Shown: one piece after another, positions 31,957-36,786 of the stretch | Position numbering within the stretch: the first letter of the stretch is position 1 | Layout of the letters: every line of letters starts with the position of its first letter | Assembly (NCBI GenBank): GCA_947166655.1 | Contig: CAMVFC010000022.1 | Coordinates: forward strand, 1-36,786 | Source of the DNA: an uncultured Prevotellaceae bacterium | Lineage (GTDB): Bacteria; Bacteroidota; Bacteroidia; Bacteroidales; Bacteroidaceae | Length of the DNA stretch: 36,786 nt | Direction of reading: 5' to 3' | Notes under the pieces: model-generated | Databases searched by the model: none | Seen by the model: only the letters and a program-made list of their open reading frames with translations | What the model was told of the DNA's origin: nothing | Program-made: the position numbers and the translations under genes

Positions 31957-33690
31957 ATGAAAGAAGAGAACGTATGGGAAGAGGATATCCACGTCAACCC
32001 TGCACAGATGGCTTTCATGATGATGCCGGCACGGAACAAGTACCTCGTCTGGAGCCGTGGTACCGGCAAATCGTTCATTGTCGGAGCAGAGGTGGACGAG
32101 AACGTGCGCCTGATGCCACGAGGCATCACCACGCTGGCTCAGGCTACCTACGGACAGGCACTGACGAAGACGCTTCCGTCAACCTTCAAGATGCTGGAGA
32201 TGCTGGGCTACCGCAAATACGACCCAAAGACGGGCATCGGCGACTATGTGGTTTGCCGGCAGCCACCTGCAGGATGGTACCTGCCATACGAACACCTGCT
32301 CAGCTTCGAGCACTGTATCTCCTTCGCGAACGGACATGCCCTCTACATCCTCACTCAGGACGGCAACAGCCGAGGACCTAACGCCGACTACAACATCACA
32401 GATGAAGCCCTGACGCTGGACAAGGAGCAGTTCGACCAGGAGGTAGCGCCGACGAACCGTGGCAATGAACACGTCTTCGGACGGCTGTCACCCCACCCGC
32501 TGATGAAGCATCATGGCAATACGTTCCTCTCATCAATGCCCTATGAGCCGAAACAGAAATGGCTGCTGGAACCGGCCAAATATTACGAGGAGGAACGTGG
32601 CGTGCAGCTCTTCGACGTCTGGAACCGCATCGTCCGGCTGCAGATGACACTCGTGGATGCACGCCTGACAAATGATGCAGCACAGTTCCGCGAGGTGTGG
32701 AACGAGGTGCTGCGACTCCGACGACAGATACAACCCTTCGTCAGCCGCGACGGAACGCTGTTCATGCTGGCCAGCATCTTCGACAACATCGCTAACGTGG
32801 GCATGTCGTACATCATCAACCAATATAAGGTGATGGCAAAGCTGCAGTTCATGATCGAGATCCTGAACTATGTGGTCGACAAGATTGACCACTGCTACTA
32901 CCAGCTCTCTGATCAGCACAAATACTACCACGCCGACAACGATGCCTTCATCCGTGATTTCGCCGATGATACGAACTTCGCCTGGCAGAAACTCGCAGAA
33001 CGCGACAGTCGCATGGATGCCGACTGCAACCCATCGGAACCGCTCGAAGTATGCTTCGACTGGGGTTCTTCGGCATCGTTCATGGAGGTGGCACAGCCCT
33101 CGCATTTCGACTGGACGACGAAGATGCTGATGCCTGACCGCATCGTTGACAACACGATCAACGAGTTCTTCGTCAAGCGCGAGGAGGAACAGGACACCGA
33201 GGTCAATGCTCTCGTGGACCGCTTCGCAGAATACTACCGCTACCATACCAACAAACTCGTCATCTTCTACCGCGACCGCTATGGCGATGCACACCGGGCC
33301 AACAGCCGACGCACGTACAACGAACTGGCCATCGCACGACTGCAGAAGTACGGATGGAGGGTGGAGACACGTGCACACCGGGGCATGGAACCGCCACAAC
33401 ATGACAAGTATCTCCTGTGGTCATACATCCTCGCAGAGACCGACACACGCTTCCCCATCAAGCGCTTTAACGCTGTCCACTGCAAGTACATCCTCATCTC
33501 CATGAACAATACACGTGTCCGGCAGTCGCCCTCCACGGGCCGCTTCGAGAAGGACAAACGCTCGGAGCGCAACGACAGCATCCTGCCCGAGGAAGCTACA
33601 CACTTCGGCGACGTCGTGGACAAACGCATCTGGACCAAGTACGGCGACCTGCTGCAGAAACAGTACTCGTTCGTCGACGTGCGCCTGTGA
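31957..33690 (+). CDS. Terminase large subunit
   Basis: A 577-aa DNA-packaging motor. The ATPase domain shows a Walker A-like WSRGTGKS (residues 31-38) and a Walker B-like NITDEA (about 146-151). The RNase H-like nuclease domain shows CFDWGSSASF (about 366), FYRDRYGD (about 435) and a late acidic GDVVDKRIW (about 549). Between them lies a charged, helical insertion of about 80 residues (VDARLTNDAAQFREV region). It lies at the 3' end of the virion cluster, after the capsid genes, the reverse of the common phage order, and ends before an intrinsic terminator. Confidence 0.85.
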   Translation: MKEENVWEEDIHVNPAQMAFMMMPARNKYLVWSRGTGKSFIVGAEVDENVRLMPRGITTLAQATYGQALTKTLPSTFKMLEMLGYRKYDPKTGIGDYVVCRQPPAGWYLPYEHLLSFEHCISFANGHALYILTQDGNSRGPNADYNITDEALTLDKEQFDQEVAPTNRGNEHVFGRLSPHPLMKHHGNTFLSSMPYEPKQKWLLEPAKYYEEERGVQLFDVWNRIVRLQMTLVDARLTNDAAQFREVWNEVLRLRRQIQPFVSRDGTLFMLASIFDNIANVGMSYIINQYKVMAKLQFMIEILNYVVDKIDHCYYQLSDQHKYYHADNDAFIRDFADDTNFAWQKLAERDSRMDADCNPSEPLEVCFDWGSSASFMEVAQPSHFDWTTKMLMPDRIVDNTINEFFVKREEEQDTEVNALVDRFAEYYRYHTNKLVIFYRDRYGDAHRANSRRTYNELAIARLQKYGWRVETRAHRGMEPPQHDKYLLWSYILAETDTRFPIKRFNAVHCKYILISMNNTRVRQSPSTGRFEKDKRSERNDSILPEEATHFGDVVDKRIWTKYGDLLQKQYSFVDVRL

Positions 33691-33747
33691 GGTGAACGAA
33701 CCGCACTTGGCTGCTGCTCTTGATGGAACCATAGCACATACATTCTT

Positions 33748-33774
33748 CCCCGTGACGTGAGTTGCGGGGTTTTT
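33748..33774 (+). terminator. Intrinsic terminator after the large terminase gene
   Basis: CCCCG / CGGGG stem with a 12-nt loop that can pair further (GTGA with TTGC region weakly), followed by TTTTT. It is 58 nt after the TerL stop and closes the virion operon. Confidence 0.75.
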
Positions 33775-33779
33775 CGTTT

Positions 33780-33945
33780 CTATAGCCTGATGCCGGTTGC
33801 CGTCGCCGCCCTGTGTGATTCTCGGGCGGCTGCGCTGTGAGATCCACCACAGGCCTCGTGCTCCGCTCTCCTAACCCTGAATCTCTCTGTTTCTGGCCCT
33901 GAGGAGGCAGCGGCGGTGGCTGCAGGCACGGGAGCCGGAGGTCAT
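33780..33945 (-). pseudogene. Decayed inverted copy of the 71-aa gene at 34215
   Basis: Read on the minus strand from the ATG at 33945, the peptide starts MTSGSRACSHRRCLL and continues to EIQ, matching MTSSFRTRSHRRCLL and EIQ of the plus-strand gene. A stop then appears, and after a frameshift the reading resumes as HEACGGSHSAAARESH and GIRL against YEVCAESHHEAAREAH and GIQI. The DNA shares an identical 24-25 nt block (GCAGCCACCGCCGCTGCCTC and on). Stop plus frameshift indicate a pseudogene. Confidence 0.75.
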
Positions 33946-33998
33946 GGAGTTGTCGTCGTGAGTTTTTGGTGTGAATGAACAAACGACTTTTTCCGCTG

Positions 33999-34006
33999 CA
34001 AAGGTA
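33999..34006 (-). promoter_or_regulatory. Leftward -7 element TACCTTTG of the decayed copy
   Basis: Minus-strand TACCTTTG followed by C lies 54 nt upstream of the pseudogene start. The plus-strand copy has the degenerate TACCTTGG at the equivalent place (34159-34166). The flanking sequence, including TCCTTGCA upstream and ATTCA downstream, is also shared. Confidence 0.55.
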
Positions 34007-34158
34007 ATTCGCCGTCTTCCGCTGCAAGGATGTCCGGAGGACTTGGCTTCAATAATTATTTTCACACAAATAAGCCGTGCCCAGGGGCTGACTGATTTCT
34101 GCTGGCGCCCTGAAGGGTGAAAATAATTCTCTGCGTCCTTGCACCGATGCACCTGGCT

Positions 34159-34166
34159 TACCTTGG
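34159..34166 (+). promoter_or_regulatory. Candidate rightward -7 element TACCTTGG
   Basis: TACCTTGG differs by one base from TAnnTTTG and lies 49 nt before the ATG at 34215, at a position equivalent to the TACCTTTG of the inverted copy. It would drive the three plus-strand genes at 34215-35364. Confidence 0.45.
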
Positions 34167-34214
34167 CAAAGCAACGTAAAAAATCTATTCATCCACCCTA
34201 AAAACTTCATCACA

Positions 34215-34430
34215 ATGACAACTCCTTACATGACTTCCAGCTTCCGCACCCGCAGCCACCGCCGCTGCCTCCTCAGCAACCAGTTCACCGTCGAGATCCA
34301 GGACTTCGACGGAGATCAGATCACCTACGAGGTCTGCGCCGAATCTCACCACGAAGCTGCACGAGAAGCACACGAACTGGCCTATGCCGATGGCATACAA
34401 ATCAACATCATGACTATCTACGAATTCTAA
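34215..34430 (+). CDS. Hypothetical small protein (71 aa), intact copy of an inverted duplication
   Basis: A 71-aa protein with a Ser/Arg/His-rich start (SSFRTRSHRRCLL) and a compact second half (QDFDGDQITYEV, EAAREAHELAYADGIQINI). No named family. The second ATG at 34230 may be the true start, since only that ATG is shared with the inverted decayed copy. The gene is first of a short operon with the 114-aa gene and the phosphoribosyltransferase gene. Its conservation in two copies at one locus suggests it is a real protein family. Confidence 0.7.
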   Translation: MTTPYMTSSFRTRSHRRCLLSNQFTVEIQDFDGDQITYEVCAESHHEAAREAHELAYADGIQINIMTIYEF

Positions 34431-34453
34431 TAACCCTCTAAACATCTCACATC

Positions 34454-34798
34454 ATGGAAAAGAATGTTATCATCGCAGAAATGGTTCAATCCATCAAGAG
34501 CAGCAACCAAGTGTGGCACGTACACGTCACCGGCATCGACAACCCTGAGCTGCAGGGATACTGCAAGCAACCACTCGCCGCCATACGCCTGGCGTTTATC
34601 CTCAAACAACGTTCCGGCTATATGATCTCGGGCACATCCCTGCAGACACTCCAGCAGCTGTACAAGGCGTCGAAGCAGCCCGCAGAGGTCAAGCAGCCGG
34701 CAGAGCCTGAGGCCACTGTGCCCGCAGGTTCTCCCGAAGGGGATTCCACCCCGGCCAAGAAGACACGCCGCACAAAGCGAGAGAAGGCAGCCCAATGA
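34454..34798 (+). CDS. Hypothetical protein (114 aa) with basic Pro/Lys-rich tail
   Basis: A 114-aa protein, 23 nt after the previous gene. Residues 1-72 look globular (VWHVHVTGIDNPELQGYC, then IRLAFILKQRSGYMISG); residues 73-114 are low-complexity, Pro/Glu/Lys-rich and end basic (KKTRRTKREKAAQ), like nucleic-acid-binding tails. No family recognised. Confidence 0.65.
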   Translation: MEKNVIIAEMVQSIKSSNQVWHVHVTGIDNPELQGYCKQPLAAIRLAFILKQRSGYMISGTSLQTLQQLYKASKQPAEVKQPAEPEATVPAGSPEGDSTPAKKTRRTKREKAAQ

Positions 34799-34815: not shown

Positions 34816-35364
34816 ATGTATGACCAGCTAAAAGGAGATACGGCCATGCTGAAGTACGCACTCTATGATTACATCCCCCGCCGGCAACAACGCCGGGCCA
34901 CCTTCGAGCAGCAGGAGACGTGCCGCCGGATCCTCGACTTCAAGGACGGCCGCAACTACGCCAAGCAGTGGGCGGCCACGGAGATAGGACGAGCACTACA
35001 CGCGGCGAAGCTCAGCGAAGTGGTCATCGTGTGCGTGCCGGCAAGCTGCCAGCACACATACGTGCGACGCTACAAGAAGTTCTCGCAGATGCTGTGTGCC
35101 ATCCTCGGGACGGCCAACGGCTTCGATTGCATTGAAGTCATCGGCCATCGCAAGAAGGCACACCATGGAGCACCCAGGGACGAGCGCCTGGTCCAAAACG
35201 TCGCCATCAGCAGCAGCCTGCGCGGACGCAAGGTGCTGGTCATCGACGACATCTACACCACAGGCGCGACATCGGATGCCTTCATCCGACGGCTCTGCGC
35301 CGTGGGCGCAACGGTCTGCGGTGCTGTGTTCCTGGGCAAGACCCGCCAACACAGGACCGCATGA
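34816..35364 (+). CDS. ComF-like phosphoribosyltransferase domain protein
   Basis: A 182-aa type I phosphoribosyltransferase fold. The PRPP-binding motif is seen as VLVIDDIYTTGAT (about residues 138-150), preceded by VVIVCVPAS and a basic loop (RRYKKFSQMLC), as in ComF-type proteins. The N-terminal zinc finger of true ComF is absent. The ATG at 34846 (MLKYALYDYI) is an alternative start with an AGGAG 9 nt upstream. ComF proteins act in DNA uptake; phage-borne PRTases are of unknown role, perhaps nucleotide salvage or regulation. It is the last gene of a three-gene operon and is followed by a stem-loop at 35401. Confidence 0.75.
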   Translation: MYDQLKGDTAMLKYALYDYIPRRQQRRATFEQQETCRRILDFKDGRNYAKQWAATEIGRALHAAKLSEVVIVCVPASCQHTYVRRYKKFSQMLCAILGTANGFDCIEVIGHRKKAHHGAPRDERLVQNVAISSSLRGRKVLVIDDIYTTGATSDAFIRRLCAVGATVCGAVFLGKTRQHRTA

Positions 35365-35400
35365 CCAATAAGCTGCCGCAACCCCAAGGGGATACAGAGA

Positions 35401-35486
35401 GTGTCGCGCCTACCGTTCCCGCCCACCCTGAGCCGTTCGCAGTGGCCAGGGTCATTGCTCATGCCCGGGGACGGTAGGCGCGACAC
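35401..35486 (+). ncRNA. Structured element: 20-bp stem with inner hairpin
   Basis: Arms at 35401-35420 and 35467-35486 pair over 20 positions: 16 Watson-Crick bp (GTGTCGCGCCTACCGT), one T-G position and three more G-C. The T-G pair is a wobble in plus-strand RNA but a mismatch in minus-strand RNA, which favours the plus strand. The 46-nt loop contains a second hairpin ACCCTG / CAGGGT. It starts 37 nt after the phosphoribosyltransferase stop and has no T-tract. It may be an RNA element, a transcript end, or a DNA site for a recombinase or relaxase. Confidence 0.5.
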
Positions 35487-35825
35487 CACAGCGCACAAAC
35501 GCCACGCTCCCGCAGACACATCGCCGTACAGGTCACGCTCACACTGCTTCTGACTGTCCACGCCTGCGCCGCGCATGAAGCTGGTGCCCGTGACTTGCAC
35601 GGTGAAGAGTCTGCTGGGACTGGCTATCGAGAGCATAGGACTATGCACTCGACTCCGCACCGCAGCCACAGGACTGCGCCCGCGCTGCGGTGTAGGACAA
35701 GGCTTGCTGCACTGCGCTCTGATGCGGTGCCCGCAGTTGTACCGAGGGGGAGGGTGCCCGTCATATTTCCTATATGACTGCGGAAGGGGCTGCGGCGCGG
35801 CTTAGGGCGCGTCGGACTTCACTGT
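35487..35825. other. Gene-poor structured stretch
   Basis: No convincing gene. Open frames exist on both strands (a 76-aa plus-strand frame at 35575, and a 138-codon minus-strand frame at 35253-35669 that overlaps the phosphoribosyltransferase gene), but codon character is poor and start context weak. Several GC-rich inverted repeats occur, for example CACCGCAG / CTGCGGTG near 35660-35700. This may be decayed sequence or a second structured region. Confidence 0.4.
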
Positions 35826-35860
35826 GAAAAAAAGGCCTCATTTCTCAAAAATGGAGGCCT
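35826..35860 (-). terminator. Leftward intrinsic terminator
   Basis: On the minus strand the stem AGGCCTC / GAGGCCT, extended by AT pairs, is followed directly by TTTTTTT. On the plus strand only GTTTT follows, so activity should be mainly leftward. Confidence 0.75.
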
Positions 35861-36095: not shown

Positions 36096-36524
36096 TTATG
36101 CGTATGTCAGGACCGGGCGCTCAATAAGCGGCACAGTTCCAATGTCTGCAAGGAATTTCTTCATACCAGCATGAATCTTGTTGAGGGTCGCCTGACGGGG
36201 TTCCTTGACGGCACTGGCATATTGTCGCAGTTGTGCGGCGTTCATGCCGATGTACTTGGCAAAGGCGGAGATGTTAAGGGGATAGTAGTCGAAGAAGGCA
36301 CCGACATCAAATTTGAATGTGAATTCCAATTCCGGCATCGTCTCACCCCTTTCCGCCAGAATCTCGCGTGTTTCTTCCTGTGCGACATAGAGGTCATCCA
36401 TGGCCTCTTGCGCCGTCCGTCCGTACCCCGCAAGGCCGAAACCGGGAAGCTCGTCAGCCACAAAACAGGAGAAATTCATATCCCCTTTTCCCTTCTCTAC
36501 GATAACTGTCACTTTCTGTGCCAT
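36096..36524 (-). CDS. hicB: HicB family antitoxin
   Basis: A 142-aa HicB-type antitoxin: the N-terminal degraded RNase H-like domain (VTVIVEKGKGDMNFSCFVAD, LPGFGLAGYGRTAQEAMDDL) and a C-terminal HTH region (FAKYIGMNAAQLRQYASAVK) for operator binding. The ATG at 36524 (MAQKVTVIVEK) is chosen over the track start at 36578, which reads through the gap. It pairs with the hicA gene just upstream and is followed by an intrinsic terminator. Such pairs are typical addiction modules of mobile elements. Confidence 0.85.
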   Translation of the reverse strand: MAQKVTVIVEKGKGDMNFSCFVADELPGFGLAGYGRTAQEAMDDLYVAQEETREILAERGETMPELEFTFKFDVGAFFDYYPLNISAFAKYIGMNAAQLRQYASAVKEPRQATLNKIHAGMKKFLADIGTVPLIERPVLTYA

Positions 36525-36605
36525 ATATTGAATTTTAAGTGGGTTTCTCAAAAAAGTTCTTCTCCAGCAATCTGTCATGAACTTGGGCGGAAAGGTTGCC
36601 CGGGG

Positions 36606-36786
36606 TTATCCCCCGAGCAACGTTTTCATGATGTCACGGAGGATGCCGACAGGCACCTCCTCGTTACCATGCCGACTGAAGATGTGGGTCTTTCCCGTGG
36701 CTGGGCTGTACCAAATCTCATGTCGGCCACCTTGTCGAAGCCGAAAGCATCCTGCTTTCTTCAGCTTCCGTTCAAGTTCATTGTAC
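36606..36786 (-). CDS. hicA: HicA family mRNA interferase toxin, N-terminus cut by the window
   Basis: Not in the ORF track because it runs off the right edge. The visible 59 residues read YNELERKLKKAGCFRLRQGG, then RHEIWYSPATGK and IFSRHGNEEVPVGILRDIM. This is the HicA double-stranded RNA-binding-like fold with the catalytic histidine after the RQGG turn (usually GSH, here GRH) and the late PVGILRDI helix. It needs only one or two more codons at the start. It lies 81 nt upstream of hicB on the same strand. Confidence 0.82.
   Translation of the reverse strand, partial: YNELERKLKKAGCFRLRQGGRHEIWYSPATGKTHIFSRHGNEEVPVGILRDIMKTLLGG

Follow-up and report, generated by a model that had tools for sequence, protein, structure and literature searches.

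A family of conserved hairpins dispersed behind genes of rumen Bacteroidales phages

Introduction

Where phages conserve hairpins, or large structured RNAs of unknown function, these point to control points or RNA machines in phage growth. A long stem-loop at 35401–35486, in a 36,786-nucleotide stretch of DNA from an uncultured Prevotellaceae bacterium (the window, the whole of the DNA analysed), raises the question of what such an element does behind a phosphoribosyltransferase (PRTase) gene. A sequence-only reading had proposed a small RNA of the plus strand, a packaging or transfer site, or a recombination site. The best-supported statement from the comparison with relatives is that the stem-loop is one of a family of conserved 3'-end hairpins dispersed in phages of rumen Bacteroidales. 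The family appears to be previously undescribed in these temperate phages, one published candidate, HMP2_4078, being compared by description only. The group is testable, as it offers a short hairpin, a nearly invariant core and a complete-prophage record (2654588113). Because copies lie behind different genes, effects on transcript ends can also be separated from effects on single genes. The more surprising part of the finding is a large neighbouring structure of ~370 nt, which has strong covariation support and is without an Rfam entry.

The stem-loop of the window

The stem-loop is confirmed as real and beyond chance. Its 21-nt arms, 35401–35421 and 35466–35486 on the plus strand, form 21 consecutive pairs, 20 of them Watson-Crick, and both covary in homologues. 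The remaining pair, T35417 with G35470, is the sole wobble of the stem and appears in the folds, although it is uninformative across homologues. The coordinates and the single wobble had been read correctly from the letters, while the length had been given as 20 of 20 pairs instead of 21. Folded alone, the plus strand reaches −58.7 kcal/mol (z −7.8, with 0/200 shuffles as good) and the minus strand −55.7 kcal/mol (z −6.4). With loops of up to 60 nt allowed, no other perfect stem in the whole window is as long, and 24 dinucleotide shuffles of the window gave longest stems of 12–18. The loop of this copy is 44 nt, longer than in many relatives, and the inner hairpin noticed earlier inside it is borne out as a prediction, although it is among the parts that vary most strongly between relatives.

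The PRTase-domain gene (ComF-like; 34816–35364, plus strand; Pfam PF00156, E 4e-7) ends with a stop codon 36 nt upstream of the hairpin, in agreement with the earlier placement, and the stretch downstream of the hairpin is indeed without a convincing gene. The mobile element to which the PRTase had been assigned is a temperate prophage of the siphophage type, starting near 19.3 kb, and not a conjugative element. The prophage is related to phages of rumen Prevotella/Bacteroidaceae, of ~45 kb each. Its genes include those for a terminase large subunit (31957–33690, plus strand; tblastn match to the annotated terminase large subunit of Microcystis phages, 30% identity over 95%) and a head maturation protease of the ClpP type, besides a D5-like regulator and primase-type gene and a weak match to a tail protein. 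As the contig stops at 36,786, the remainder of the prophage is missing. An integrase and a tape measure are encoded in relatives, and a 44.4-kb relative (G064, locus L109), read in all three of its stretches, runs from repressor to integrase in a complete-prophage layout. The ends of a complete prophage are present in the associated 44.4-kb IMG/VR record, 2654588113. Proteins related to the PRTase were found at 47 IMG/VR loci, and close matches at 15 genome loci. These genome loci are without exception in Bacteroidales MAGs, most of them sampled from the rumen or another forestomach. No DNA similarity to plasmids or annotated phages was found, and the window holds no tRNA gene. No relaxase was found among the prophage proteins scanned, whose matches were to phage protease, terminase, tail and primase-like proteins. 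A conjugative transfer site or origin is therefore unlikely, as the element is a temperate phage and a relaxase is absent among the proteins scanned.

Two further features of the window were observed. A large imperfect palindrome (33683–34534, centred near 34,090), with several nested inverted repeats of 12–48 nt, fills the space from the terminase stop to the 34454 gene. It looks as if part of the 34215/34454 genes had been duplicated in inverted orientation, and L003, L004 and L064 retain its inner repeat, AATTATTTTCAC..GTGAAAATAATT. At 36096–36786, a leftward HicB-type-antitoxin-like gene and a HicA-like frame that is cut off where the contig stops were recognised by eye, with no match in Pfam.

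Covariation and the invariant core

Covariation analysis on homologues had been proposed as a check and was carried out here. When 63 loci were read over 1 kb behind the PRTase gene, about half carried the hairpin, its core retained and its arms changed. Among the 19 pairs of an alignment of 16 representatives, 12 display compensatory double changes, with 31 doubly changed cells compared to 5.5 ± 2.1 in shuffles. Pairing holds in 93% of cells, against 25–47% when the partners are slid. The structure is thus kept through compensatory change to an extent beyond that of shuffled alignments.

The arms covary around an invariant core, CCCGCCCACCCTGAGCCG...CATGCCCGG, which across the family reads nearly without change as CCCGCCCRCCCTGRGCCG ... 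CTYATGCCCGG, with an inner loop part variable in length and sequence. In the window the near-invariant 5' core CCCGCCCACCCTGAGCCG comprises the inner stem and the C-rich loop side (35418–35435, plus strand; alignments A2 and A3), and the conserved 3' core GCTCATGCCCGG lies at 35457–35468 (plus strand; alignment A2). The 17.5 kb of the window prophage and the 48 kb of record G061 each hold a single instance of the motif CCCACCCT; it is found once or twice per phage record, confined to the hairpin region. Three copies of one clade share the inner stem GCCTACCG, and their outer stems (GTGTCGC, GATTTCGC and GGTGTAAC) are unrelated yet complementary in each. With regard to a possible G-quadruplex on the minus strand, only three of the four G-tracts are invariant by eye.

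Mini-hairpin repeats of the form TTCTGCTATTCGCAGA-N-GATGCTTATGGCC-N-GGCCATC were also seen in intergenic islands of the phages (L017 5522–6200, L090 5519–6200, L104 2857–3500 and L105 5516–5700). The repeats and the hairpin core have GCTTATGCCC in common.

Distribution among phages and hosts

A covariance model of the hairpin was searched over 69 sources and 21 whole phage/host records; in all, 41 copies are located, that of the window included. These lie behind four different genes, encoding the PRTase, terminase, primase and tape measure, and always in the direction of the gene. As the late genes all run one way, orientation relative to the genes and orientation in the genome are not independent observations. 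Where the preceding gene is that of the PRTase, primase or tape measure, the start of the hairpin is at most ~50 nt from the stop codon. Phages that have no copy behind the PRTase often carry one downstream of the terminase, 150–235 nt from the stop. Second copies are found 16 nt behind the primase/helicase stop (G062 and G063) and in the gap that separates the tape-measure gene from the tail gene after it (G081). A phage record holds 0, 1 or 2 copies, usually one; the hairpin is absent from 4 of 19 virus records (G074–G077) and appears to have been lost in L067, beside its relative L005. In a close relative (L181, 1482–1823) the PRTase is reduced to residues 117–182 directly behind the terminase gene, and the hairpin is kept.

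Host genomes G080 and G081 yielded no further copies at E 0.001 among the best 150 candidates each, and none was found in G000 and 300 other sampled Bacteroidaceae genomes. Pattern scans of IMG/VR found the hairpin in this phage group only. Other contigs matching the bare core motif were set aside as mostly chance matches with weak model scores, and six examined human-faecal phage contigs with a distant PRTase lack the hairpin.

Strand of the hairpin

The lone U-G wobble of the window had been taken as evidence for a plus-strand RNA, and this argument does not survive comparison with homologues. An A.C on the plus strand would read U-G on the minus strand, and in the solid stem of 37 distinct copies there are 11 C.A/A.C cells (~8 independent events) against 3 G.T cells. 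The 16-row alignment likewise has 8 A.C-type mismatches to 1 G.T. As A.C exceeds G.T, and the minus strand gives the better fold for 18 of 24 distinct hairpins, wobble gives no support to the plus strand. RNase P, taken as a control from the same family, has wobbles of 125:18 in favour of its true strand, or ~7 G.T per A.C. Since G.T is not preferred in the hairpin, unlike in this control, selection may not act on a plus-strand RNA.

The plus strand is favoured instead by one-sided T-runs. TTTT occurs within 48 nt downstream on the plus strand in 20 of the 41 copies, compared to 4.9 ± 2.1 at random positions, while AAAA occurs in the same 48 nt in none of the 41. As random positions are mostly coding sequence, this A/T asymmetry is the better control. 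The upstream flank displays no asymmetry (TTTT 10, AAAA 11), and among 19 dereplicated copies downstream TTTT is found in 9 and AAAA in 0. A short GC hairpin with a T-run comes immediately after it in two groups (GGGGCAAAGCCCCGTTTTTCT; GCGGGTAGACCCGCCTTTTT), the latter being called as a terminator. A strict terminator pattern is matched beside the L078 copy, by the second hairpin, and not in L077. Behind the window copy and its close relatives no T-run was found, and the strict pattern scan misses the window hairpin. The missing T-tract described earlier holds for this copy and not for many relatives. Overall, the flanking T-runs point to the plus strand as that of a putative transcript of the hairpin.

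The adjacent multi-branched region

In most relatives a further region of 320–390 nt lies behind the hairpin, starting with CCACCCTC..CCCCTGCGCACCTGAACG and ending with GGTGCTTGCCT. The fold shared by 22 sequences is multi-branched and closed, with 132 pairs in 14 helices. Double changes are found at 70 of the 132 pairs, with 265 doubly changed cells compared to 83 ± 8 in shuffles. The consensus fold scores −273.6 on the minus strand and −247.0 on the plus strand, against approximately −100 for column shuffles (ten trials). Among pairs common to both folds, wobbles of the minus versus plus strand number 110:44, 40:25 and 24:12 in three groups. The lean is consistent, and weaker than that of a known RNA, as the RNase P control gave 125:18. 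The large region thus leans to a minus-strand RNA, although a mutation bias is possible instead. A Bacteroidetes-type promoter (TTTG-N-TANNTTTG), sought on the minus strand behind the large structure, did no better than in shuffles.

Folds of 35365–35720, which reach −191.4 kcal/mol on the minus strand (z −5.6) and −171.3 on the plus strand (z −6.5), suggest a divergent window counterpart at 35488–35719, tentatively assigned to the minus strand. Its position and the internal-loop motifs recognised by eye are consistent with homology to the large structure of the relatives. In L077 (5659–6035) and its relatives, recurrent internal loops are seen in which A.A mismatches alternate with G-C pairs. 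At several places of the large structure such loops have AGAGAG opposite CACACA on the plus strand and U.U on the minus strand, and the window has AGA/ACA.

The hairpin occurs without the large region in L108 and at the second copies, and the large region without the hairpin in L070 and L097; in the terminase group the two lie 1–2 kb apart. As each occurs without the other, they are separable modules. It is possible, if somewhat doubtful, that the ~370-nt structure with its 132 conserved pairs represents an undescribed ornate RNA opposite the late genes, ended by the hairpin in some lineages and unrelated in sequence to GOLLD/ROOL.

Beyond this region in the window, a conserved non-coding block at 35746–35852 (no strand assigned) is 75% identical in a same-genus genome (E 5e-11; similarity search, query 381–487). 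A similar block, CTTACATATTCCGCT..GGGCGTAGGGCGGTG, is seen in relatives, even in those without the hairpin and the large structure. A GGCCTC/GAGGCC hairpin flanked by an A-run and a T-run was recognised in the sequence at 35818–35856 (no strand assigned), where the pattern scan misses it. Possibly it could serve as the end of transcripts from either side.

Possible function of the hairpin

The reading that fits best, held at somewhat less than even confidence, is that of a 3'-UTR or terminator-region hairpin of phage transcripts, which would mark the 3' end and be recognised through its core. The placement in the 3' end of rightward phage transcripts is read from the one-sided downstream T-runs, and the reading also draws on the covarying structure, the invariant core and the dispersal in gene orientation. 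Upon rightward transcription of the upstream phage gene, the RNA would fold into the long stem, the arms being free to change as long as pairing persists. The stem end would then present the invariant, C-rich, asymmetric core, CCCGCCCACCCTGAGCCG opposite CATGCCCGG. The hairpin may be the upstream component in a composite terminator; alternatively, it may protect the 3' end as a structure that is bound via the core by a phage or host factor. Transcription of the hairpin, its part in termination or protection, and the binding factor are all what we infer from these patterns. As the window copy is without a T-run, which it would have lost, its transcript would run on past the hairpin and across the neighbouring folded region, possibly as far as the T-run hairpin near 35.86 kb. 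A plain terminator would have no need of an invariant core, and the 4 virus records of 19 without a copy argue against the preferred reading as a whole.

The minus-strand lean of the neighbouring region raises an alternative, in which a large leftward RNA in the style of GOLLD/ROOL has the ~370-nt region as its body and the hairpin as its 3' domain. The double changes at 70/132 pairs (265 cells vs. 83 ± 8), the better consensus fold on the minus strand (−273.6 vs. −247.0), the excess of minus-strand wobbles (110:44, 40:25, 24:12) and the 18/24 hairpins that fold better on this strand are all consistent with such an RNA. It is nonetheless unlikely, as the T-runs point the opposite way and the two structures are separable in second copies, L108, L070, L097 and the terminase group. 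Additionally, no minus-strand promoter was found behind the large structure and the strand skew is below that of the RNase P control.

The near-equal or reversed numbers of A.C and G.T in the stem would also suit a site acting as DNA, where a phage protein binds the extruded or single-stranded palindrome during replication, packaging or recombination. One copy per phage is usual, often near the terminase gene, and CCCACCCT is restricted to one or two occurrences in the hairpin region of a phage record, as might be expected of such a site. Against this, copy number ranges from 0 to 2 and the position shifts between four genes, which also speaks against cos/pac packaging, and the consistent downstream T-runs would serve no role; we regard a DNA site as quite improbable. 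Least probable is a selfish or passively dispersed palindrome whose arms are kept complementary by template switching during replication, with no selection on the fold. Outer stems that differ wholly within one clade while each is complementary, symmetric intermediates and the apparent loss in L067 beside L005 are what this process might leave behind. Template switching cannot keep a loop core, however, and this core is near invariant across divergent phages; the T-runs recur in several lineages, and the host chromosomes examined contain no copies.

Comparison with known systems

Neither the window nor the loci of ten relatives matched Rfam 15 at the gathering threshold, and down to E 1 the window stretch gave only three chance matches to unrelated families. 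No papers on these hairpins or large elements were found in the open literature, although one may exist elsewhere. The 3'-end hairpin shares with intrinsic terminators in phage 3'-UTRs its position behind stop codons, its gene orientation and, often, a T-run or a GC hairpin with a T-run. It differs in its invariant core, in the 44-nt loop and missing T-run of the window copy, and in that the actual terminator in two groups is a separate second hairpin. REP or palindromic-unit repeats of bacteria are likewise dispersed non-coding hairpins behind genes with covarying arms. They number hundreds per chromosome, however, whereas the phage hairpin has 1–2 copies per phage in one phage group, with no GTAG-type flank seen. 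Membership of REP/BIME, which requires many host-chromosome copies, is rejected, as G080 and G081 (best 150 candidates each), G000 and the 300 genomes hold none further.

HMP2_4078 is a 109-bp palindromic candidate structured RNA found mostly in Bacteroidetes of human microbiomes (Fremin and Bhatt 2021, PMC8040213). It lies near D5 N-terminal and phage integrase domains and was not predicted as a terminator (PMC8040213). By description, which is the sole basis of the likeness, it resembles the phage hairpin in its palindromic form, its Bacteroidetes hosts and its D5/integrase context, and differs in its human-microbiome source. GOLLD and ROOL are large, extensively covarying phage RNAs of unknown function, often near tRNA islands (PMC12286853). 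Covariance models of GOLLD, ROOL or any other Rfam family gave no match here. The 370-nt region is shorter than these RNAs, is without an Rfam match, lies in a window with no tRNA gene and belongs to another host group. The likeness concerns this region only, which is, as they are, large, covarying and phage-encoded.
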